From Oscillospiraceae bacterium (lineage in GTDB: Bacteria > Bacillota > Clostridia > Oscillospirales > UBA929), in assembly GCA_031255175.1 (NCBI GenBank), contig JAIRTA010000068.1:1-43883 (forward strand): a stretch of 43,883 nt of DNA. Direction: 5' to 3'. The notes beneath the pieces are model-generated. The model was not told the origin of the DNA. It made no database searches and worked only from the letters and a program-made list of their open reading frames with translations. Each line of letters opens with the position of its first letter. Within the stretch, counting starts at the first letter, position 1. Below, piece after piece: positions 4,228 through 38,680 of this stretch. The position numbers and the translations under genes are program-made.

Positions 4228-6333
<2,106 letters not shown>

Positions 6334-6360
6334 GCCCGGCAAGACCGGCCCAGAACCGAC

Positions 6361-6395
6361 AAAAACGCCCCGGCCGCGCGGCCGGGGCGTTTTTT
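6361..6395 (+). terminator. Intrinsic terminator after hppA
   Basis: A fully palindromic hairpin: AAAAACGCCCCGGCCGC pairs with GCGGCCGGGGCGTTTTT, beginning 28 nt after the hppA stop. The symmetrical A and T tracts would let it work in both directions. Confidence 0.92.
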
Positions 6396-6413
6396 ATGTC
6401 TCAGGACGCGATG

Positions 6414-6467
6414 ACAGATAACAGTTAACAGATAACAGTTAACAGATAACAGTTAACAGATAACAGT
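6414..6467. repeat. 14-bp (2 x 7) tandem minisatellite
   Basis: Three full copies and one partial copy of ACAGATAACAGTTA, itself made of two heptamers (ACAGATA, ACAGTTA). It lies in the roughly 235-nt gap between hppA and the XRE regulator; the rest of that gap has a few dispersed ATTCGATG motifs and no gene. A related heptamer array lies at 9913-9945. Confidence 0.9.
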
Positions 6468-6568
6468 CTGTTTCTTTTGCGGATGGTGAGGGGTTCGATT
6501 TTTACTTCCGGGCCGGAATTCGATGCCAGAGATTCGATGACTGAATTCGATGACTGCGATTCGGTGTC

Positions 6569-8128
6569 TCAGGATTCGGCGGTCAGGGTTTTTAAGATCC
6601 TCCCGACTCTGGCCATCAGGTCCGCCTTGCTGCCGGCGACGCGGCGCAGGGAGCGGAACCAGTCATCCAGCAGGTGCATCGTGTTCCGGTCCCCCAAAAA
6701 GAAGGCGGACACCGCACTCGGCGCGGCGGGGATCATCAGGGTGCCCGCGTCGCGTTTGCAGGCGATGTTCCAGTTGTCCGGCAGGGTGTCCGACGTGACG
6801 ATGTGCAGGTTGTCGTACCAGCGCAGCACCGTGAGCGCGTTGTCCAGATAGCGGATCAGGTCCTCCCCCTCGAGGACAGCCAGCCTCGGCTCGTCGCTCA
6901 GTTCCCGGCCGTCCAGCTCCAGCCGCCTGTCCCGCTCCAGCGTCTGCAAAAAAGTCTCCGTCCATATCTCTGTCCACGGCGACGAGGCCACGCGCACCTC
7001 GAAGTTCTCCCGGCGGGCGTCCAGCAGCCGGAGCGCCGCCGCCGCCGCGCCGCCGGACGGCAGCCGCCGCACCACCGGGGGCCAGAGCGCCTCCGGCAGC
7101 CAGAGCGTGCCGGGGGACGCGGCCGTGGAGATGTAGTCGCCCGGTTTGTTTTCCAGTTCTGTCAGCGCCCTCATGCAGGAGAGCGGCTCCGCGGCGGGGC
7201 AGGCGTACACCAGCGCGCGCGTGTGCGGCTCCAGGAGGCGGACCATCGTCTCATACAGCAAAATATCGGCCGCGTCGCGGTACAGCGCCGTCGGCAGCGG
7301 CCCGCGCTGGTCCCTGTCGCCGCAGGAGACAAGGGCGGCGAGACCGGGCGCGACGCAGAGCGTGAGCCCCTCCCACCCGGGCGGCGCGTCGGCGGCGCAA
7401 AACGAGAAAAACTGCCCGGTGGCATAGAGCGGCAGATGCCGGGCGAGCAGGGAGAGCAGCGCCGCCGGCGAGGAGGGCGCGGGGTGGACCATGTGAACGC
7501 GGCAGCCCTGGAGCGTCAGCGTCTGCAAACACTGAAACCAGAGCTTAAAAAACGGAGAGTCCTCCGAGATCCACTGCGCGTCCGACGGGAGCAGAATATG
7601 TACGTCGGACGGGCGGCTGTTTGAGAGCACGGTGTGGAAGAAGTTGACGGCCGCCTGCCGCCGGCCGCCCGGCCCGTGGTAGAGCTCGTGCGTCTGGGTC
7701 TGCCCCGAATATACCATATTTTCCCATTCCCGCGGCCGTATCGCCGCCGGGCGGAGCCGGTCGATCGCCGCGAAGCCCCCGCACACGCGGTCCATCAGGC
7801 TCTCGACCGACAGGGGCGCGGGCGGAACGCCGGCGGGGTCGGCGGGCGGCAGCGCGCCCTGCCGCAAGTATCTTTCGAGCGCCGGCAGAAGGCCCGCCTC
7901 GTCGCCGGCCTCGACCAGCCGCATCAGCAGGAGCCTGTCGTGTTCTCTGAGCGGCGCGCCCGCCAAAAAATGCGCGAGGTCTCCGTACACCGCGCCGCCC
8001 AAGGCGGGGACCCTCTCCCCGCTCTTCCATCGGGACACGAGGGAGGGGTCGACGCCGATGCCGCGCGCCAATGTGACGTTGGGCATACGGTACACATCCA
8101 ACAACGTTGACAACCTCTCCGCAAACAT
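6569..8128 (-). CDS. Large XRE-family regulator with uncharacterised C-terminal region
   Basis: 519 aa from ATG 8128, which has GGAGGG 7 nt upstream; the frame extends to 8179 but without a ribosome site. Residues about 1-60 form an XRE-type helix-turn-helix ('VTLARGIGVDPSLVSRWKSG'). The remaining 450 residues have no family I can name: they look soluble, contain no membrane segment, and include 'HTVLSNSRPSDVHILLPSDA', which suggests an alpha/beta fold. It is probably a DNA-binding sensor protein that acts alone, as it has its own promoter and no partner gene on its strand. Ligand and targets cannot be read from the sequence. Confidence 0.75.
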   Translation of the reverse strand: MFAERLSTLLDVYRMPNVTLARGIGVDPSLVSRWKSGERVPALGGAVYGDLAHFLAGAPLREHDRLLLMRLVEAGDEAGLLPALERYLRQGALPPADPAGVPPAPLSVESLMDRVCGGFAAIDRLRPAAIRPREWENMVYSGQTQTHELYHGPGGRRQAAVNFFHTVLSNSRPSDVHILLPSDAQWISEDSPFFKLWFQCLQTLTLQGCRVHMVHPAPSSPAALLSLLARHLPLYATGQFFSFCAADAPPGWEGLTLCVAPGLAALVSCGDRDQRGPLPTALYRDAADILLYETMVRLLEPHTRALVYACPAAEPLSCMRALTELENKPGDYISTAASPGTLWLPEALWPPVVRRLPSGGAAAAALRLLDARRENFEVRVASSPWTEIWTETFLQTLERDRRLELDGRELSDEPRLAVLEGEDLIRYLDNALTVLRWYDNLHIVTSDTLPDNWNIACKRDAGTLMIPAAPSAVSAFFLGDRNTMHLLDDWFRSLRRVAGSKADLMARVGRILKTLTAES

Positions 8129-8169
8129 TCCATGTCCCTCCCCCGGCCCGCATCCCTTCAGCCGCCACC

Positions 8170-8198
8170 ACTGTATCACAGGCGCCGGGGACTGTCAA
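8170..8198 (-). promoter_or_regulatory. Sigma-A promoter of the XRE regulator
   Basis: Minus strand TTGACA, 17-nt spacer, TACAGT, about 42 nt upstream of the start at 8128. Confidence 0.75.
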
Positions 8199-8220
8199 CT
8201 CACGCCGGCAAAGGCCGCGC

Positions 8221-8252
8221 AAAAGGGCCGGGCGCACGCGCCCGACCCCTTT
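8221..8252 (-). terminator. Terminator after rubredoxin
   Basis: On the minus strand AAAGGGGTCGGGCGC pairs with GCGCCCGGCCCTTTT (one mismatch) and ends in a short T run. It follows the rubredoxin stop by about 80 nt. Confidence 0.65.
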
Positions 8253-8332
8253 GTGATTTTGCCGTTGGCCGCGCCGCGGCGCCGCCAAAGCCGGAGAACC
8301 GGGCGCGGCGGCCCGCTCCAAATCGGCCGCGC

Positions 8333-8491
8333 TCACGCTTTGTCGAACAACTCCTTGCCGACGCCGCACATGGGGCAAACGTAGTCTTCGGGGACATCCG
8401 CCCACGCCGTGCCGGCCGCGATGCCGTTGTCCGGGTCGCCCTCGGCCTCCCGATACACAAACCCGCAGACAGAACATACGTATTCGGCCAT
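8333..8491 (-). CDS. Rubredoxin
   Basis: 52 aa from ATG 8491, with GGAGGATG upstream. The sequence has the two classic iron-binding knuckles, CSVCG near residue 6 and CPMCG near residue 39, joined by '[13 protein letters not shown]', and is the exact size of a classic small rubredoxin. It carries one electron on an Fe(SCys)4 centre, in anaerobes usually to rubrerythrin, superoxide reductase or flavodiiron proteins in oxygen and NO detoxification. It is monocistronic, with its own promoter and terminator. Confidence 0.97.
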
Positions 8492-8548
8492 GTTTCATCC
8501 TCCAAATCAGATTTTTCCGCCGCCCGGCGGCGGACCGGGTGCAATTCC

Positions 8549-8576
8549 AGTATACCACACCGCGCCGTTTTGTAAA
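8549..8576 (-). promoter_or_regulatory. Promoter of rubredoxin
   Basis: Minus strand TTTACA, 16-nt spacer, TATACT with an extended TG one base upstream of the -10. It is about 58 nt from the start codon. Confidence 0.75.
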
Positions 8577-8628
8577 GAGCGGACCCCCGCGCGGCGGTGC
8601 GGTTTTGCCGGCGCGGGGCGGCGCGGGC

Positions 8629-8664
8629 AAATAAAAAAAGGCGCTTGCGCGCCTTTTTTTATTT
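8629..8664. terminator. Bidirectional intrinsic terminator ending the structured RNA
   Basis: A perfect 16-bp stem: AAATAAAAAAAGGCGC, loop TTGC, then GCGCC and a T-rich arm. On the minus strand it follows directly on the closing stem of the RNA at 8667-8857. Confidence 0.92.
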
Positions 8665-8861
8665 CAATGCCCCCACTTCGGCCGTGCGAACCCATTTATA
8701 ACCTGCACGCTCCATGCAGGTGGGTCGCCTCTCCGCAGGGTCACGGCTTCCAACATCCGGAAATTCCGGGAGGCCTGCCATCAACAGCAGAAGCCCGGCG
8801 TCCCGTTGTCATCATGTGGGTTTAAAAAGGCCCGTCACGAACCAAGCAGGGAGGCATCTGT
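8629..8861 (-). ncRNA. ssrS: Probable 6S RNA (RNA polymerase-binding RNA)
   Basis: A free-standing minus-strand transcription unit with a consensus promoter, a body of about 190 nt and an intrinsic terminator, without an ORF. The ends pair: AUGCCUCC at the 5' end (8850-8857) with GGGGGCAU at the 3' end (8667-8674). Further helices include CUUGG..CGUG against CACG..CGAAG, AACCCA against UGGGUU, GGCUUC against GAAGCC and the hairpin ACCUGCA/UGCAGGU. Size, closed long structure and gene layout match 6S RNA of Clostridia. The 6S name comes from overall resemblance; a structured ncRNA is much more certain than the family name. Confidence 0.62.
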
Positions 8862-8868
8862 TGTTTTT

Positions 8869-8897
8869 ATTGTAGCACAGGACGGCGGTCTTTTCAA
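8869..8897 (-). promoter_or_regulatory. Promoter of the 6S-like RNA
   Basis: Minus strand TTGAAA, 17-nt spacer, TACAAT. It predicts a start near 8861, a few bases outside the closing stem. Confidence 0.88.
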
Positions 8898-8927
8898 GAC
8901 CAACCTGCGCCGCCGCAAAATTTTTGG

Positions 8928-9212
8928 TCACGTCTCCTCGTCGTCGTCCTCGGAGAGCCTTTGCATAAAGAGCTCGTACACCCGCTCCATCTCCTCGTCG
9001 GAATCCAGCGTGGCCAAGATCTCCTCCCCGTCCTCCTCCGCCGCCTTGAGGATGATCATATCGACCTCCGCCTCATCGTCCGGCGTGTCGGCCGGGATGA
9101 ACGCCATGTACACGGTCCCCCCGTGTTCCAGTGTGTCCAGATGTTCGAGTTCGTACTCCTGCCCCTCGTCGTCCGTCAGGGTGATGATGTCACTGCCGTA
9201 TTCGTCACTCAC
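8928..9212 (-). CDS. DUF1292 family protein (YrzB-like)
   Basis: 94 aa from GTG 9212, with GGAGGAGG about 11 nt upstream; the frame is open to 9323 but the N-terminal extension is Arg-rich and unlike the family. The protein is very acidic and carries the DUF1292 pattern: 'DIITLTDDEGQEYELEHLDT' then 'VYMAFIPA' and a run of Asp/Glu. The function of this small cytoplasmic family is unknown. It lies between the 6S-like RNA and the BofC-like gene on the same strand. Confidence 0.85.
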   Translation of the reverse strand: MSDEYGSDIITLTDDEGQEYELEHLDTLEHGGTVYMAFIPADTPDDEAEVDMIILKAAEEDGEEILATLDSDEEMERVYELFMQRLSEDDDEET

Positions 9213-9341
9213 AGTCCTCGCGCCTCCTCCTGCCCGCCGCCTGGCGCCGCGGCGGACAAACCCTTTTTTATAAGCATACCGCGAGCGGCGGCAGAAAGCA
9301 AGTAAAAATCCTGTCAAGGCCAAAATTCGGACCTTCTCCCG

Positions 9342-9707
9342 TCAGGGCCCAAAGTCCTCCAGCGCCATCTGGAGCGCCTCCCAGCCCAGCACCGCAATGC
9401 CCTCCCTGAGCCGCGCCTGGTCGGCCGCCCGCAGCGACGAGGTCCGGATCTGCGTGACCTGCTCCGGCGCCGCGAGCTCCGGCATCCGGTAGACGGCCAC
9501 GCGCCCGTCCTCGTCTTTCAGCACAAAGACATCCTCCCCCGACACCGCGGCCCCCGCGGGCCACGCCGCCGGCACCGGCGTCGGCGTCTCGCGGCGCGGC
9601 GCGCGGCGCGCCGTGAGATACAGCGCCGGCACGCACAGGCACAGCGTCAGCAGCGCGCACACCCCCGCCAGCCGGCGCATCCGCCCGCGCGCCTCCCTAT
9701 CGAACAT
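9342..9707 (-). CDS. Membrane-anchored protein with BofC C-terminal-like domain
   Basis: 121 aa from ATG 9707, with GGAGGGAGACG directly upstream. A single membrane anchor (about residues 12-33) is followed by a Pro-rich linker and a compact domain with 'FVLKDEDGRVAVYRMPEL' and 'SLRAADQARLREGIAVLGW'. This resembles the BofC C-terminal domain found in many small clostridial membrane proteins. BofC of Bacillus restrains a forespore signalling protease in sporulation, but a sporulation role here is only inference. It carries the same AT-rich upstream element as fliI. Confidence 0.6.
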   Translation of the reverse strand: MFDREARGRMRRLAGVCALLTLCLCVPALYLTARRAPRRETPTPVPAAWPAGAAVSGEDVFVLKDEDGRVAVYRMPELAAPEQVTQIRTSSLRAADQARLREGIAVLGWEALQMALEDFGP

Positions 9708-9762
9708 CGTCTCCCTCCTCCCGCCCCGCCGGCGGACCGTGCGAAAATTACGCCTCATAACC

Positions 9763-9800
9763 ACAACATATGCTACATATATACTATATATAGTATATGC
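9763..9800 (-). promoter_or_regulatory. AT-rich palindromic element upstream of the BofC-like gene
   Basis: A 38-nt block beginning ACAACATATGC and ending TATAGTATATGC. It contains a perfect 20-bp palindrome, ATATACTATATATAGTATAT (9779-9798), and closely resembles the block at 3399-3435. It lies 56-93 nt from the start codon. Confidence 0.5.
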
Positions 9801-9912
9801 GCGCGGACGCTCCCCGGGCTTCGCACGGCCTGTCGGACGTTGCGCGGTTCCACATGGGAATTGTGCCCAAAAACGCGCAGCCCCATACACGCCGCGGGGG
9901 AGGCGAGTTTTT

Positions 9913-9945
9913 AATTGACAATTGACAATTGACAGTTGACAATTG
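9913..9945. repeat. Heptamer minisatellite
   Basis: Nearly five copies of the 7-bp unit AATTGAC (one copy is AGTTGAC). It lies in the 380-nt gap between the BofC-like gene and rplL, which has no gene of its own. Confidence 0.9.
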
Positions 9946-9950
9946 GTGTC

Positions 9951-10020
9951 GCCCCGGCGCGTGCGCATGTAGGGGCGCACCCATGTGTGCGCCCTCGTGT
10001 TCGACGCCCCGGCGCGTGCG
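9951..10020. repeat. REP-like hairpin flanked by 15-bp direct repeats
   Basis: GCCCCGGCGCGTGCG occurs at 9951-9965 and again at 10006-10020. Between them is an inverted repeat, GGGCGCAC (9973-9980) with GTGCGCCC (9987-9994), preceded by GTAG. The arrangement looks like a small dispersed intergenic element next to the heptamer array. Confidence 0.6.
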
Positions 10021-32402: not shown

Positions 32403-32436
32403 CCGGAGGCAGATTCGGCGAAGTTATCATTCACCC
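32403..32436. repeat. Dispersed repeat copy 3 (partial)
   Basis: CCGGAGGCAGATTCGGCG then TTATCATTCACCC: only the left third of the repeat. It reaches into the stop codon region of the XRE-pentapeptide gene. Confidence 0.75.
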
Positions 32437-33336
32437 GTTGGGGGAGGCGTCAGACCCTTCGTGCACCGTCACATCGGACAGGTTCGCTTTGCAGGCTTTC
32501 AAAAAAGCGTAGGTCAGCCGATCTGCCTGACAGTTTATGAATTTGGCTCTCCGGAGCTTGGCGTTTTTGAAGAAACACCGGTAAAGGCGCGCGCCGTCAA
32601 AGGTCACGCGGGTAAAATCGCAATTTTCAAACGCGCACTCGGTCAGATCTCCGGTGAAGGTCATCTCGGTCAGCTGCCCGAAGGCAAATTTTGTCCGCGA
32701 CAGCACGGCGCCGTCGAGGCGGACCTTTTTGAAGTGGCTCCATTTTGTCGACAGATCCGTCAGATCGGCGCCGGAGAGGTCACAGTCCGCCATATGGCTG
32801 CCGGAGAATACGCTTCCGCTGAAATCGCTGCCCGCAAACGCGTCATGTTCCATTTTGACGCCGCTGAACCGGCAGCCGCTGAGGTCCGAGCGGGAAAAAT
32901 CGCTGCCCCGAATGTGGTTGCCCTTCATGGTCAGCCCCGACAACTCGGAGCCGACGAACTGGCAGCGCTCAATGTTCGCGCCGCTGAACCGCTCGGCGAG
33001 GCCCGAAAGCCCGGAAAAATCGGCGTCTGCCCAACGCCCGCCGGACAGATTCCACCCCGGCCGTTCGGGCGCTTCCCCGGCCCCGGTAGCCACAGACGGC
33101 CCGGCCGGCTCAGGGGCGGAGGCGTCGGCCTCTTCGCCTGCCAAATACTGTAAATTCGTATCAAGCGCCGCCGCGATGCGCCGGAACATGAAGATGTCGG
33201 GCACGGACTCGCCGCGCTCCCATTTGCCCACCGCCTGCGCGCTCACCGCCAGCCGCGCCGCCAGCTGCGCCTGGGAGAGATTTTTCAGTTTTCTTGCCAC
33301 GGCAATTTTTTTGCCGATCTCGATCTGTGTCAGCAT
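32431..33336 (-). CDS. XRE domain fused to pentapeptide repeats
   Basis: 301 aa from ATG 33336 (AAGGTGGG about 6 nt upstream). Residues 1-65 form an XRE helix-turn-helix ('LSQAQLAARLAVSAQAVGKW'), followed by an Ala/Pro-rich linker and about 190 residues of pentapeptide repeats (e.g. 'ADFSGLSGLAERFSGANIER', 'GSDFSRSDLSGCRFSG', 'LSGADLTDLS'). Pentapeptide proteins form a right-handed square beta helix; some mimic DNA and shield gyrase. Here the helix may bind a ligand or partner while the XRE part binds DNA; this is inference. It stands alone on the minus strand; the stop lies within a dispersed repeat. Confidence 0.88.
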   Translation of the reverse strand: MLTQIEIGKKIAVARKLKNLSQAQLAARLAVSAQAVGKWERGESVPDIFMFRRIAAALDTNLQYLAGEEADASAPEPAGPSVATGAGEAPERPGWNLSGGRWADADFSGLSGLAERFSGANIERCQFVGSELSGLTMKGNHIRGSDFSRSDLSGCRFSGVKMEHDAFAGSDFSGSVFSGSHMADCDLSGADLTDLSTKWSHFKKVRLDGAVLSRTKFAFGQLTEMTFTGDLTECAFENCDFTRVTFDGARLYRCFFKNAKLRRAKFINCQADRLTYAFLKACKANLSDVTVHEGSDASPNG

Positions 33337-33488
33337 ACAGCCCACCTTGCCTTTCCGATGATTGGATTGCGGCGCCCGAAACCTTCGGCCCCGCTGCAAG
33401 ATGATTATAGCCGACAGCGGGCCGTTTCTCAAGAGAGATTCGACAACCGTCGGTTGTATTTCGCCTCACATCGTTGTTTTCTGCCGCG

Positions 33489-33954: not shown

Positions 33955-34105
33955 AGGAGCGCCGAGTGTTGCGCTGTGTTTTTACAAAGCATTGAAAATG
34001 TATACGATAACAGGACGCATCCTGCGCTCGGGGTTTCATGTTTTTTTCGTGCTCTTGGGGGCCGCGGCGCCCCCTGAAAATTTCAATTCAAAAGGGGAGA
34101 GCGCA

Positions 34106-37100
34106 ATGAAAACTTTCCAAAAGGCGTTGGCTCTGGTTCTGACGCTGGCGTTGGTGCTTGGCGCCGCGCCTGTCGCGTTGGCGGACGATCCACCGCCGCC
34201 GCAACCGCTCAGACTGGTGGAAGCCAGGCTGGTCACCGAGGTGCTCGACTGGGGCGAGAGTGTCACCGCCATACGGATCGAGTACGACGACGAGATCTCG
34301 TGCAGCGCCATCGAGTACTCGCTGGAACACGCAAACAGAATGACCTACAAGATGGTCAGCAACAGGGACATCGTCAACCTGTACGTCAACAACAGCGGCA
34401 GGAAGGACGACGTCCAGCTGAAAGGCAGGTATGTGTTCATCAACCTCGGCATCGAAAATGAGGACTTCGCCACATACCGCGACCAGATCGTCTTCAGGGG
34501 CAACAGGCTGGAGCCGGACGACCTGACGCTGCACCTGACGCAATCCCTGCCGATCACCTCGGTGAACGGGAAGGTGTGCGGACCCAGCACGTTCAGCACA
34601 ACCACCGGTCAGATGACCGCCGAGAAGGACCGGGTTCTCCCCGCCTTGACGGCGGATCTTCTCGGGCCGGACGTGATTGAGGTGCGCACCGCGTCGACGG
34701 AAGTGCGCACGGTGCTGGACGACTTCCGGACCTTCATTTACAGAAACCCCGCCAGGCGCACCAATACTGACCCTGACGACAACAACTATTATCTGAAATT
34801 CCACCTCTACATCCCGCCGGGATATGACGTGGCCAAAGCAAGCAGCGACGAAGACCCCCTGCCCCTTGTCGCCCACTACCCCAACACCGGCGACAGCAGC
34901 CTTGAGGACGACATGCACATCGCAAACGGCGTCCTGCCGGCCTGGCCGACAACGGGGAGCACCGTCTCGAACCTGAAACGGCATATGGGCGCGCTGATGG
35001 CCCACCCCGAGGCCGTGTACTGGGCCGACGCGGAGGCGCAGGAGAGGAACCCGAGCTTTGTGCTGAGCATTGCCGGGCCGACCTCGGGCGGATACCCCGG
35101 CAGCCCCGCGTTTTCGATCTTTTCGCCGCCGGGCGGCGCCAACTGGGACCGCTGGTATCATCAGTCCCCCATGCAGCAGGACTACATCCAGGTCATGCAC
35201 TGGATCATGGACACGTTCAACGTCGATACGAGCCGCGTCGTCGGCATGAATCTGATGGACGGCGCGACGTCTCTCTACGCCACCCTGATCCCACGTTGGG
35301 ATTCCGTGGCCAAAGGGGGCGATGACTTCCCCGAGGTGGACATCTTCTCCGCTTTGGTCATCAACGGGATGGACGGGTACAACACCTTTGCCAACAACAC
35401 CTCCCTGCCCGGCCCGCTGTGCGCCCCTCCCGACGAAAAGCCGGTGGTCCTTTTCCCGCCTCCCACCGGAGCGGATCAGGTTCAGCTCGTTCCGGACAAG
35501 AACTTTGAGGAATGGCTGCAGTACGCCGACGAACAGATCACCAAAATTTTCGACATGACGCCGATGTGGCTGATCGGCGGCCACACCGACCGCACCGGGC
35601 CGGTGTACGGCGACCAAACCTACGTGGGCCAAGACATCGGCGACGGCTTCGGCGGCTTTTTCAGCGGGCAGGCCGTCGGCCGCATCAAGGGCGAGCGGAT
35701 GTTCGATTTCGCCCACAGACTGAACACCGCGGCGGGGGAAACCGTGGTTGTGGCCAACGACTGGAACTCCATGTGGAACGGCCTTGTCAACCAAAACCCC
35801 ACGTCGAACCCGGCGCTGAAGGGGGACGCGACGGAAAAGATGGCGAAGGCCCAGTGGGATGCGGCAAAGGCGCTCGGGGTAAATGTGATCTACTCCTCCG
35901 TGATGCCGGGCACTCTCCCGCAGACCTCGCACTGGGTCTGGAACGCCGCGAACCGCAACCGCGTCGTACAGGACTGGGCCTTCTCCCAGGTAAAAGGCAC
36001 GCACGAAGGCTTCGACAGAGACGTCCTCGACAAGGTGGACTACGACGTGCATCTCAATGCCGAGGGCGGCGGCACCGTCTCCTATGCGGGGATGAGCCCC
36101 CGGACCCCGCGGGTGATCCCGGACAACGCGCCGAGGCTGGAAGGGAAAGCCGGGATCGTGGAGGCCAGACTGGTCACCGAGGTGCTCGACTGGGGCGAGA
36201 CCGTCACGGCGATCCGCATTGAATACGCCGAGGAAATCCTCTGCGACGCAATAGAGTATTCCGTCGAACACGCCAACAGGCAGAGCTATCAACTGGCCTC
36301 CGACCGCGACATCACCAACCTGTACGTCAACAACAGCGGCAAAAAAGACGACTACCAGCCGCAGGGCAAGTATGTATTTATCAACCTGGGCCTGAACAGC
36401 TGGGACTTCACCTCCTACCGCGACCAGGTCTGCTTCGACACCAGCCTGCGCATCAGGCCGCGGATCAACCCCTACTATGTCTACCAGGCCTTCCCGGTCA
36501 TGACGGTGGAGGGGAATGTGATCGAGCCCACACGCATTGTCACCGAGATCAGCCCGATCTCCGGGACGCTGCTGACCGCGGACGGGAAGTGGCTGCCGAA
36601 CATCGAGCAGATGGACGTCTGGTCCACCGAGGTGCGCACGGTCATAGACGAGTTCAGATCGTTCCGCTACACGAACCCGGCGGACGACAGCCAGACGAAG
36701 TTCCACCTGTACATCCCGCAGGGCTATGAATCCCGCAAAGCCAGCCTCGAAGACATCCCGCTGGTCGTACACTTCCCCTCCGGCGACACCGCGTACGTCG
36801 ACGACGTTCTCGGCAACGCGGACGCCAGCCGGCAGATGGGCTCGCTGTTCACCCACGCCGACGCCTCCATCTGGGCCAGCGAGCGGGCGCAGGCGCAGCA
36901 AAAGGCCTTCGTGCTGACGCCCGGCCCCAATTGGAACGGCAATTACATGTACATCGTCAAAGCGCTGGCGGAAAATCTCAACATCGATATCGGCAGGATC
37001 TACGCCATCAGCCTGGCGGCCGGCTCGACGCCCATGTGGAACACCATCCTGGCCAACCCCGGCGTCTTCGCCGCCTACATCAGCACCGCGTACGACCCCT

Positions 37101-38680
37101 ACCACGCCTTCGCCGGCGGCACGGGCGACTACGCGGACAGGGCCAAGAACGCCGAAGATAAGTTCGAACAGCTTTTGGAAGAACTGCCCGGCTGGAACTT
37201 TGCCGGCTTGACGGACGGCTCCGGCAGCCCCGTGACCGGCGACCCCCAAGCCCGCCTGAAGGGCGAGCGCTGGCGCGACATCGGCCTGCTCATGAACACC
37301 GAAGCGCATAAAATCGACGTCAGCTGGGGCCAAGAGGGCGAGCTGATGTGGAACGGTATGCTGCGCGGCAAGAAGGCGGAAGCGGAGGCCGAGGCACAGC
37401 TCGCCCGGGCCGAAACCGCCGGCGCGGACACCTTGGTCACCCTGTTCATTCCGGGTACCGTCCTGCAAACGATGCACTGGTCCTGGATGGCCGCCTACAC
37501 CAACGCGGTCACGTGGGAATGGCTCTATTCGAATGTGCGGGAGGACGCCGTCGGGACGGCGAATATCGTCGCGCCGACGCCCGCGTACATCATAACGTTT
37601 GAGCCGAACAACGGCACGGCCGCGACGAGCTCAACAACGGGGCCGGACGGCAAACTGTCCTCCCTGCCCACGCCCTCGAGATCAAACTACCGGTTCGGCG
37701 GCTGGTACACGGCGTCGAACGGCGGGACGCCTGTCACGACGAGTTACGTGTTCGACCGCGACACTGTGATCTACGCGCAGTGGGCATACGTCAGCGGCGG
37801 CAGCGGCATCCCCGTCACCGGCGCGCCCAGGAGCTTCACCGTGGCCTTCAACAGCACCGGCGGGAGCGCCGTGTCGAACCAGAACGTCGCGTCGGGCGGC
37901 AAGGCCGTAAAGCCCGCCGACCCGACCCGTGAGGGCTACGCCTTCGCCGGCTGGTACACGGACGCGGCGGGCACAACCGCCTACAACTTCAACAACGCCG
38001 TGACGGCCGGCCTCACCCTCTACGCCAAGTGGACCCCGTCCGACGGCACAGGGGAGAGCCCGGACGACGGGACGGCGGGCGCCCCCAACGAGACGCCGTT
38101 TGCGGACGCCGCCGGGCACTGGGCCTATGAGGACATCAAGTACGCCCACGACGCCGGTTTGATGAACGGCATCTCCGCGAACCAATTCTCGCCCAATGTC
38201 CCGACCGAGCGCGGGATGATCGTCACGGTGCTGTGGCGGATCGAGGGTTCCCCCGTCCCGGAGGCGACGTCGCCGTTCAACGATGTGGCGGTGGACGCCT
38301 ACTACACCCCCGCGGTGACTTGGGCGGCGGAGAACAATGTGGTGAACGGCATAAGCAGCGGCATATTCGCGCCGCGCCGCCCGGTGACGCGTGAGCAGGT
38401 GGCCACGATCCTCTACCGCTACGCGCAGTATAAGCAGTACAATGTGAGCGCGCAGGGCGACCTGACCGCGTTCCCGGACGCCTCGGCCATCTCCGAGTAC
38501 GCGGACGCCCGCGCGTCCGTCACATGGGCCGTGGGCGCCGGTCTGCTCCGCGGCCGCTCGAACGGCGCGCTGGACCCGCAGGGCACCGCCACCCGCGCCG
38601 AGCTGGCCGCACTGCTGCACCGCTTCCTCCTCGCCTTCGCCCCCCCGGCGGACGGCGAAGGGGCCGGCGCGGAACAATAA
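34106..38680 (+). CDS. S-layer-anchored protein with two tandem esterase-like units, InlB repeats and SLH domains
   Basis: 1524 aa from ATG 34106 (AAAGGGGAGA 4-5 nt upstream). The signal peptide ends near residue 27 ('APVALA'). Two homologous units follow (about 36-680 and 685-1150). Each has an Ig-like N-terminal domain ('VEARLVTEVLDWGE..VTAIRIEY', 'NLYVNNSG') and an alpha/beta-hydrolase-like domain similar to esterases of the Est1/EstA type. At the expected nucleophile elbow unit 1 reads RVVGMNLMDG (about residue 376) and unit 2 RIYAISLAAGS (about 962), where the family has G-x-S-x-G, so both look inactive. Then come two InlB-type repeats (about 1161 and 1244) and three SLH domains (1331, 1390, 1455) that bind cell-wall polymer. 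Probably a surface binding or structural protein. Confidence 0.93.
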   Translation: MKTFQKALALVLTLALVLGAAPVALADDPPPPQPLRLVEARLVTEVLDWGESVTAIRIEYDDEISCSAIEYSLEHANRMTYKMVSNRDIVNLYVNNSGRKDDVQLKGRYVFINLGIENEDFATYRDQIVFRGNRLEPDDLTLHLTQSLPITSVNGKVCGPSTFSTTTGQMTAEKDRVLPALTADLLGPDVIEVRTASTEVRTVLDDFRTFIYRNPARRTNTDPDDNNYYLKFHLYIPPGYDVAKASSDEDPLPLVAHYPNTGDSSLEDDMHIANGVLPAWPTTGSTVSNLKRHMGALMAHPEAVYWADAEAQERNPSFVLSIAGPTSGGYPGSPAFSIFSPPGGANWDRWYHQSPMQQDYIQVMHWIMDTFNVDTSRVVGMNLMDGATSLYATLIPRWDSVAKGGDDFPEVDIFSALVINGMDGYNTFANNTSLPGPLCAPPDEKPVVLFPPPTGADQVQLVPDKNFEEWLQYADEQITKIFDMTPMWLIGGHTDRTGPVYGDQTYVGQDIGDGFGGFFSGQAVGRIKGERMFDFAHRLNTAAGETVVVANDWNSMWNGLVNQNPTSNPALKGDATEKMAKAQWDAAKALGVNVIYSSVMPGTLPQTSHWVWNAANRNRVVQDWAFSQVKGTHEGFDRDVLDKVDYDVHLNAEGGGTVSYAGMSPRTPRVIPDNAPRLEGKAGIVEARLVTEVLDWGETVTAIRIEYAEEILCDAIEYSVEHANRQSYQLASDRDITNLYVNNSGKKDDYQPQGKYVFINLGLNSWDFTSYRDQVCFDTSLRIRPRINPYYVYQAFPVMTVEGNVIEPTRIVTEISPISGTLLTADGKWLPNIEQMDVWSTEVRTVIDEFRSFRYTNPADDSQTKFHLYIPQGYESRKASLEDIPLVVHFPSGDTAYVDDVLGNADASRQMGSLFTHADASIWASERAQAQQKAFVLTPGPNWNGNYMYIVKALAENLNIDIGRIYAISLAAGSTPMWNTILANPGVFAAYISTAYDPYHAFAGGTGDYADRAKNAEDKFEQLLEELPGWNFAGLTDGSGSPVTGDPQARLKGERWRDIGLLMNTEAHKIDVSWGQEGELMWNGMLRGKKAEAEAEAQLARAETAGADTLVTLFIPGTVLQTMHWSWMAAYTNAVTWEWLYSNVREDAVGTANIVAPTPAYIITFEPNNGTAATSSTTGPDGKLSSLPTPSRSNYRFGGWYTASNGGTPVTTSYVFDRDTVIYAQWAYVSGGSGIPVTGAPRSFTVAFNSTGGSAVSNQNVASGGKAVKPADPTREGYAFAGWYTDAAGTTAYNFNNAVTAGLTLYAKWTPSDGTGESPDDGTAGAPNETPFADAAGHWAYEDIKYAHDAGLMNGISANQFSPNVPTERGMIVTVLWRIEGSPVPEATSPFNDVAVDAYYTPAVTWAAENNVVNGISSGIFAPRRPVTREQVATILYRYAQYKQYNVSAQGDLTAFPDASAISEYADARASVTWAVGAGLLRGRSNGALDPQGTATRAELAALLHRFLLAFAPPADGEGAGAEQ

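Follow-up and report, generated by a model that had tools for sequence, protein, structure and literature searches.

A predicted surface pseudo-esterase of an Oscillospiraceae bacterium with two EstA-type units, both lacking the catalytic serine

The locus and its tandem units

The window, that is, the whole stretch of 43,883 nucleotides that was analysed, contains on its forward strand a frame of 1524 residues (34106-38680) with zero internal stops, and inspection of the upstream sequence places AAGGGGAG at 34092-34099, directly 5' of the ATG at 34106. In Pfam the product matches the EstA Ig-like domain twice (PF18435), the Listeria-Bacteroides repeat twice (PF09479) and the SLH domain three times. 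PF18435 scores 99.2 bits over both units, and 52.8 and 49.7 bits singly, for a cut-off of 26.7. The features are the following.

34106-38680, + strand: coding sequence of the putative SLH-anchored tandem pseudo-esterase, 1524 amino acids, ATG at 34106
34106-34183, + strand: signal-peptide-like N-terminus, residues 1-26, recognized by eye without a prediction tool
34223-34579, + strand: unit 1 EstA Ig-like domain (PF18435), residues 40-158, from Pfam
34688-35995, + strand: unit 1 alpha/beta-hydrolase-like domain, about residues 195-630, from profile match and model, limits set by us
35249-35263, + strand: unit 1 elbow N382-L-M-D-G386, with Met384 at the nucleophile position (codon 35255-35257)
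35588-35590, + strand: unit 1 kept acid Asp495 (GGHTD), from the alignment
35930-35932, + strand: unit 1 kept His609 (TSHWVW), from the alignment
36164-36523, + strand: unit 2 EstA Ig-like domain (PF18435), from Pfam
36617-37540, + strand: unit 2 alpha/beta-hydrolase-like domain, about residues 838-1145, from phmmer, profile and model, limits set by us
37010-37024, + strand: unit 2 elbow S969-L-A-A-G973, with Ala971 at the nucleophile position (codon 37016-37018)
37214-37216, + strand: unit 2 kept acid Asp1037 (GLTDGSG), from the alignment
37475-37477, + strand: unit 2 kept His1124 (TMHWSWM), from the alignment
37586-37783, + strand: first Listeria-Bacteroides (InlB-type, Flg_new) repeat, a Pfam match in two stretches, limits by eye
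37835-38029, + strand: second Flg_new repeat, residues 1244-1308, from Pfam
38096-38608, + strand: three SLH domains (38096-38212, 38273-38404 and 38471-38608), from Pfam

The two units are about 42% identical, and insertions in unit 1 account for the difference in their lengths (645 versus 465 residues). The first-pass annotation of this DNA, made from the sequence alone, had given each unit an Ig-like domain and a hydrolase-like fold; both are recovered here, through the two PF18435 matches and the alignment of both units to 3doh, a structure of EstA. Neither unit passes any hydrolase model of Pfam or NCBIfam, and unit 2 weakly matches PHB-depolymerase-type esterase models (E 0.0023 and 0.022) over a span that includes the elbow region. 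Among solved structures 3doh is the best match both in phmmer (E 1.4e-10) and with a profile built from nine unit sequences (hmmsearch, E 2e-23). The phmmer alignment pairs IYAISLAAGS of unit 2 with IYITGLSMGG of 3doh, without gaps at that place, and the two-unit profile agrees. AlphaFold2 models were computed from shallow alignments of nine rows and serve at the level of the fold only, their mean pLDDT being low (unit 2, 52.5; unit 1, 43.9). With these low-confidence models VIA-align 2 ranks 3doh first for both units, above acetyl xylan and feruloyl esterases, with Z 17.2 over 300 aligned positions (rmsd 9.5) in one case and Z 15.3 over 230 (rmsd 3.5) in the other. Foldseek also ranks 3doh first for the unit 2 model; for the unit 1 model it puts S-formylglutathione hydrolase-type chains first, and 3doh is absent among the matches listed. 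EstA (3doh and 3doi), which we take to be the Thermotoga maritima protein, has an N-terminal Ig-like domain and an alpha/beta-hydrolase domain with Asp and His, as do the window units, but it is a single unit with GLSMGG, whereas the window protein has two units with Met or Ala in place of Ser, has lost the oxyanion His-Gly and has SLH anchoring in addition. Thermotoga maritima is the sole control genome that matches PF18435.

The genome encodes a CsaB pyruvyl transferase (234.5 bits for a cut-off of 213.1; 8 of the 14 control genomes match, four of them over the cut-off) and yields 74 SLH matches. Together these make SLH anchoring plausible, and we infer that the window protein is attached to the wall by its SLH domains. 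That these domains and the InlB-type repeats are kept, as had been noticed at first reading, is borne out by the orthologs described below: all three sequences that reach the C-terminus (window, L002 and L005) retain them and end at a stop codon. Among 10 neighbouring frames scanned with Pfam, matches were obtained for a MerR/GyrI-like regulator, a Prismane protein, a Schlafen-AlbA protein, an HTH-pentapeptide protein, a class II tRNA synthetase and an amidase; nothing among them hints at a polysaccharide locus. The HTH-pentapeptide frame (32434-33432, - strand) fuses an HTH domain to pentapeptide repeats. The neighbourhood varies among relatives, as a frame that looks GyrA-like by eye lies upstream of the gene in L003 and L041 and not in the window. 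In L002 a large SLH-type surface protein (5585-9988, + strand, 1467 amino acids, by eye) adjoins the ortholog; it is absent from that place in the window.

State of the active-site positions

The two units and their orthologous counterparts (nine window-family rows, four of unit 1 and five of unit 2) were aligned with 25 other EstA-type units, fetched from PF18435 matches in the class and phylum and from related matches. Two candidates were left out of this count: G890, a 171-amino-acid frame without hydrolase part, and G645, which is below the cut-off and whose frame resembles a cell-wall-type protein. The nucleophile column holds Ser in 25/25 other units, Met in all four unit-1 rows and Ala in all five unit-2 rows, so that the catalytic serine is missing in both units of the window protein, as initially claimed, at Met384 and Ala971. 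Two columns before it, the elbow Gly of 25/25 other units is replaced in the window family by Asn (unit 1) or Ser (unit 2), and two columns after it the Gly is present in 25/25 other units and 9/9 window-family rows. The motifs first proposed for the elbow, GMNLMDG and AISLAAG, thus correctly pointed to the loss of Ser but not to the exact register, the aligned pentapeptides being NLMDG (382-386) and SLAAG (969-973). In the low-pLDDT models the substituted residue falls in a strand-helix turn in either unit: Met at 346, between strand 335-344 and helix 350-364, in unit 1, and Ala at 286, between strand 275-284 and helix 290-298, in unit 2. The initial claim would have fallen had another Ser occupied the elbow; the alignment places none there in either unit, the nearest being S389 (+5) in unit 1 and S969 and S974 (-2 and +3) in unit 2, and by alignment neither unit has a replacement nucleophile.

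The active-site loss exceeds what had been claimed, as the oxyanion motif is missing as well: its first His, present in 20/25 other units, is Pro in 9/9 window-family rows, and the region reads HYPNTGD and HFPSGD in the two window units. The two other catalytic positions are kept. The acid column is Asp in 25/25 other units and 9/9 window-family rows. The catalytic His is found in 19/25 other units, with a His one or two columns off in the remaining six, and in the 8/8 window-family rows that reach the column, unit 2 of L004 stopping short of it. The three Ser-bearing units closest to the window family have 199 invariant positions in common, of which unit 1 keeps only 82 and unit 2 only 86, which indicates that the ancestral surface is largely altered. 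Judging from these residues, both units presumably lack esterase activity.

Orthologs, selection and the history of the loss

Orthologs were collected by a contig search (L002 to L005, from bins that are presumably termite-gut MAGs) and from genomes of the same genus (G002 to G004). Duplicates were counted once: G002 is L004 (identical Ig-region values), and G004 and contig C363 of G449 are L003 and L005, respectively (same lengths, places and read sequence). After merging, six distinct sequences remain, five of which contain unit 1. All of them read NLMDG in unit 1 (n=5) and SLA[A/G]G in unit 2 (n=6), with the codons ATG and GCG, and the Asp and His motifs are present wherever the sequence extends that far. 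Nei-Gojobori dN/dS medians are 0.10 for the Ig-like part and 0.18 for the hydrolase part of unit 1 (10 pairs), and 0.07 and 0.14 for those of unit 2 (15 pairs), with dS between 0.33 and 1.42 in the ortholog pairs. Such values point to purifying selection on the serine-less protein rather than decay and, together with the fixation of the loss in all distinct orthologs, agree with the early suggestion that the serine-less state is maintained by selection.

The gene has a narrow distribution. It occurs in 4/394 genomes of the order, all in a single genus (4/18 genomes of the family, 4/6 of the genus), the two genus members without it being 83-87% complete. One ortholog, L005 (also L040, on contig C363 of G449), comes from a genome assigned to a different family within the class, and its record shares the sample code Gx485 with L002; a misplaced contig (misbinning) and a transfer are both possible. 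PF18435 itself is sparse, with matches in 9/291 genomes of the class and 13/398 of the phylum. The profile search over the 398 phylum genomes matched six genomes, of which the useful one was G1051, and a search of plasmid proteins was uninformative, returning 21 records with 24-26% identity among the matches listed and none covering 80%.

No further serine-less EstA-type unit was found among the 25 aligned units or, by motif, among three units of G104; the Ser-bearing units include those of a tandem paralogue encoded by the window's own genome, described below. In a tree of 34 units, computed with the nucleophile column kept in the alignment, the two units form sister groups (100/100), and the stem that carries them is 1.65 changes per column long. 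Next to them (99/95) stand L053 (G1051) and L088/L089 (G1062), which make up a subclass of single units from another order with the Ser in place. This subclass shares with unit 2 a WNG...EAEAQ-type insert and an H-x-SWM end; unlike the window units it keeps GLSMGS or GLSAGS and HGxGE, and the frames read show neither tandem nor SLH. Topologies that join these three Ser-bearing units to just one of the two window units are rejected (p-AU 3e-48 for unit 2, 7e-40 for unit 1), and a single change of the Ser state is the minimum that the tree requires. Since the units are sisters on a long stem and the oxyanion loss is common to both, a single loss that preceded the duplication is the simplest account. 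The serine was probably lost once on this stem, after which the unit would have been duplicated and the dead position would have diverged to Met and Ala. Two independent losses are not favoured, given the rejected trees and the minimum of one change; losses after duplication, along the separate branches of the two units, are less likely but compatible with these tests. For the same reasons, sister units and a common oxyanion loss, the treatment of the loss in both halves as two independent pieces of evidence, as in the first-pass annotation, is not supported.

The genome of the window also encodes a tandem EstA-type paralogue of 1006 amino acids (L038, 1906-4926, - strand, on contig C34 of G000). 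Both of its units bear Ser (GCSMGG) and it has an HWSWVP motif; it adjoins a partial frame that looks GH3-like by eye and offers itself as a control for the window protein. It sits in a different subclade of the tree and is thus not the parent of the window protein.

Possible function of the serine-less units

The window protein has presumably lost the capacity for standard ester cutting, yet it is preserved intact in close relatives of the bacterium, suggesting that it probably binds rather than digests. The retention of Asp and His over the long stem further suggests that the old pocket still matters. Several fold neighbours of the models (1gkl, 7xrv, 6syv, 6t0e) have titles that describe feruloyl or glucuronoyl esterases in which the Ser was mutated to Ala in the laboratory and ferulate or uronate is bound, which indicates that a pocket with Ala for Ser can still hold a ligand. 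The retained Asp and His and these ligand-holding pockets lead us to favour, with reasonable though not high confidence, a cell-surface pseudo-esterase that serves as an SLH-anchored, tandem and hence bivalent ligand-binding module. An exported EstA-type unit would have lost its catalytic serine, elbow glycine and oxyanion His-Gly; the serine-less unit would have been duplicated in tandem and would have gained the InlB-type repeats and the SLH anchor, in either order. The SLH domains would hold the protein on the pyruvylated secondary wall polymer, with the two former active-site clefts facing outward. These clefts, with Asp and His and without nucleophile, would most likely bind an ester-bearing or carbohydrate ligand with no turnover, and the module would act as an adhesin or capture module. 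Ligand binding by the units is thus predicted from the residues that they keep; plant polysaccharide esters, also named at first reading, are a guess at the ligand by analogy with the fold neighbours. Several observations weigh on the other side: with its oxyanion motif altered, the pocket may have taken another shape and may no longer fit the ester that its ancestor bound; the greater part of the ancestral surface has been replaced; the elbow Met of unit 1 is bulkier than Ser; the models are of low confidence, and Foldseek prefers other esterases for unit 1; and no gene neighbourhood conserved among relatives points to a polysaccharide. A narrower version, which we put forward tentatively, is a natural substrate trap, in which the nucleophile-less Asp-His pocket, with Ala for Ser in unit 2, duplicated and mounted on SLH domains, would grip acylated polysaccharide uncut, in a bivalent, lectin-like manner. 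If true, it would represent a route from a carbohydrate esterase to a binding module.

The alternative that survives best, although we regard it as unlikely, is an inert spacer or S-layer-like scaffold, a non-binding folded stalk that keeps the repeats off the wall. The loss of the oxyanion motif and elbow while SLH domains and repeats persist would suit such a stalk, as would the abundance of SLH surface proteins in this genome; yet a bare spacer has no need of an Asp and a His that are conserved in 9/9 and 8/8 rows over a long stem, nor does it readily explain the low dN/dS of the hydrolase parts. The same Asp and His raise the prospect of another chemistry, by which they would activate water, or Asp385 of unit 1, one residue past the elbow position, or some other residue would act as the nucleophile. 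We give this little credence, as unit 2 reads Ala-Ala at the equivalent place, a shift by one residue in unit 1 puts the +2 Gly conserved in all rows out of register, and the oxyanion motif is lost. The window protein might also be a pseudo-enzyme that regulates or partners the Ser-bearing paralogue on contig C34, as the shared two-unit layout of the two proteins in one genome suggests, but this appears very improbable, the two belonging to different subclades of the tree and to different contigs, and the read sequence of the C34 protein showing no SLH domain by eye. Finally, a decaying gene or an assembly error, conceivable for metagenome-type assemblies, can practically be dismissed in view of the open frames, the identical residues and codons in all distinct orthologs and dN/dS medians of 0.07-0.18.

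A wall-anchored binding module, the reading that we favour, would have parallels in other families, where alpha/beta-hydrolase pseudo-enzymes are already known. MPT51 (FbpC1) of Mycobacterium tuberculosis is a non-catalytic alpha/beta-hydrolase of the antigen 85 family, and like the window protein it is a secreted protein with a serine-hydrolase fold and no catalysis; it belongs to another family, is set beside the window protein here by description, and is not known to have an Ig-like domain, tandem or SLH. Neuroligins are cholinesterase-like adhesion molecules in which an esterase fold has been turned to binding after loss of a catalytic residue; they differ from the window protein in being animal proteins of another esterase family. 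For a serine-less EstA or PF18435 protein, including an SLH-anchored tandem, we found no description in our searches of open-access papers. Serine-less relatives of hydrolases that are under selection show how an enzyme changes into a binding protein, and here the Ser-bearing tandem paralogue in the same genome and the single-unit relatives make a stepwise test of the passage from esterase to binder possible. Should the ligand be acylated hemicellulose, the protein would also exemplify a new type of surface module for binding fibre among gut-type Clostridia.

Two further observations concern other EstA-type proteins. One subclade (L080, L081, L082, L083, L090 and L055) has the Ser (GQSxG), while its oxyanion His-Gly is gone (e.g. 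FVADASAN) and its His is shifted (NHMYTW), a combination that possibly reflects altered catalysis. The other is an open frame of 2750 residues (L087, from 393 onward, + strand, in G039; also in G104), in which an N-terminal carboxylesterase-like part is followed by three EstA-type units alternating with parts that look metallo-beta-lactamase-like by eye (HxHGDH).
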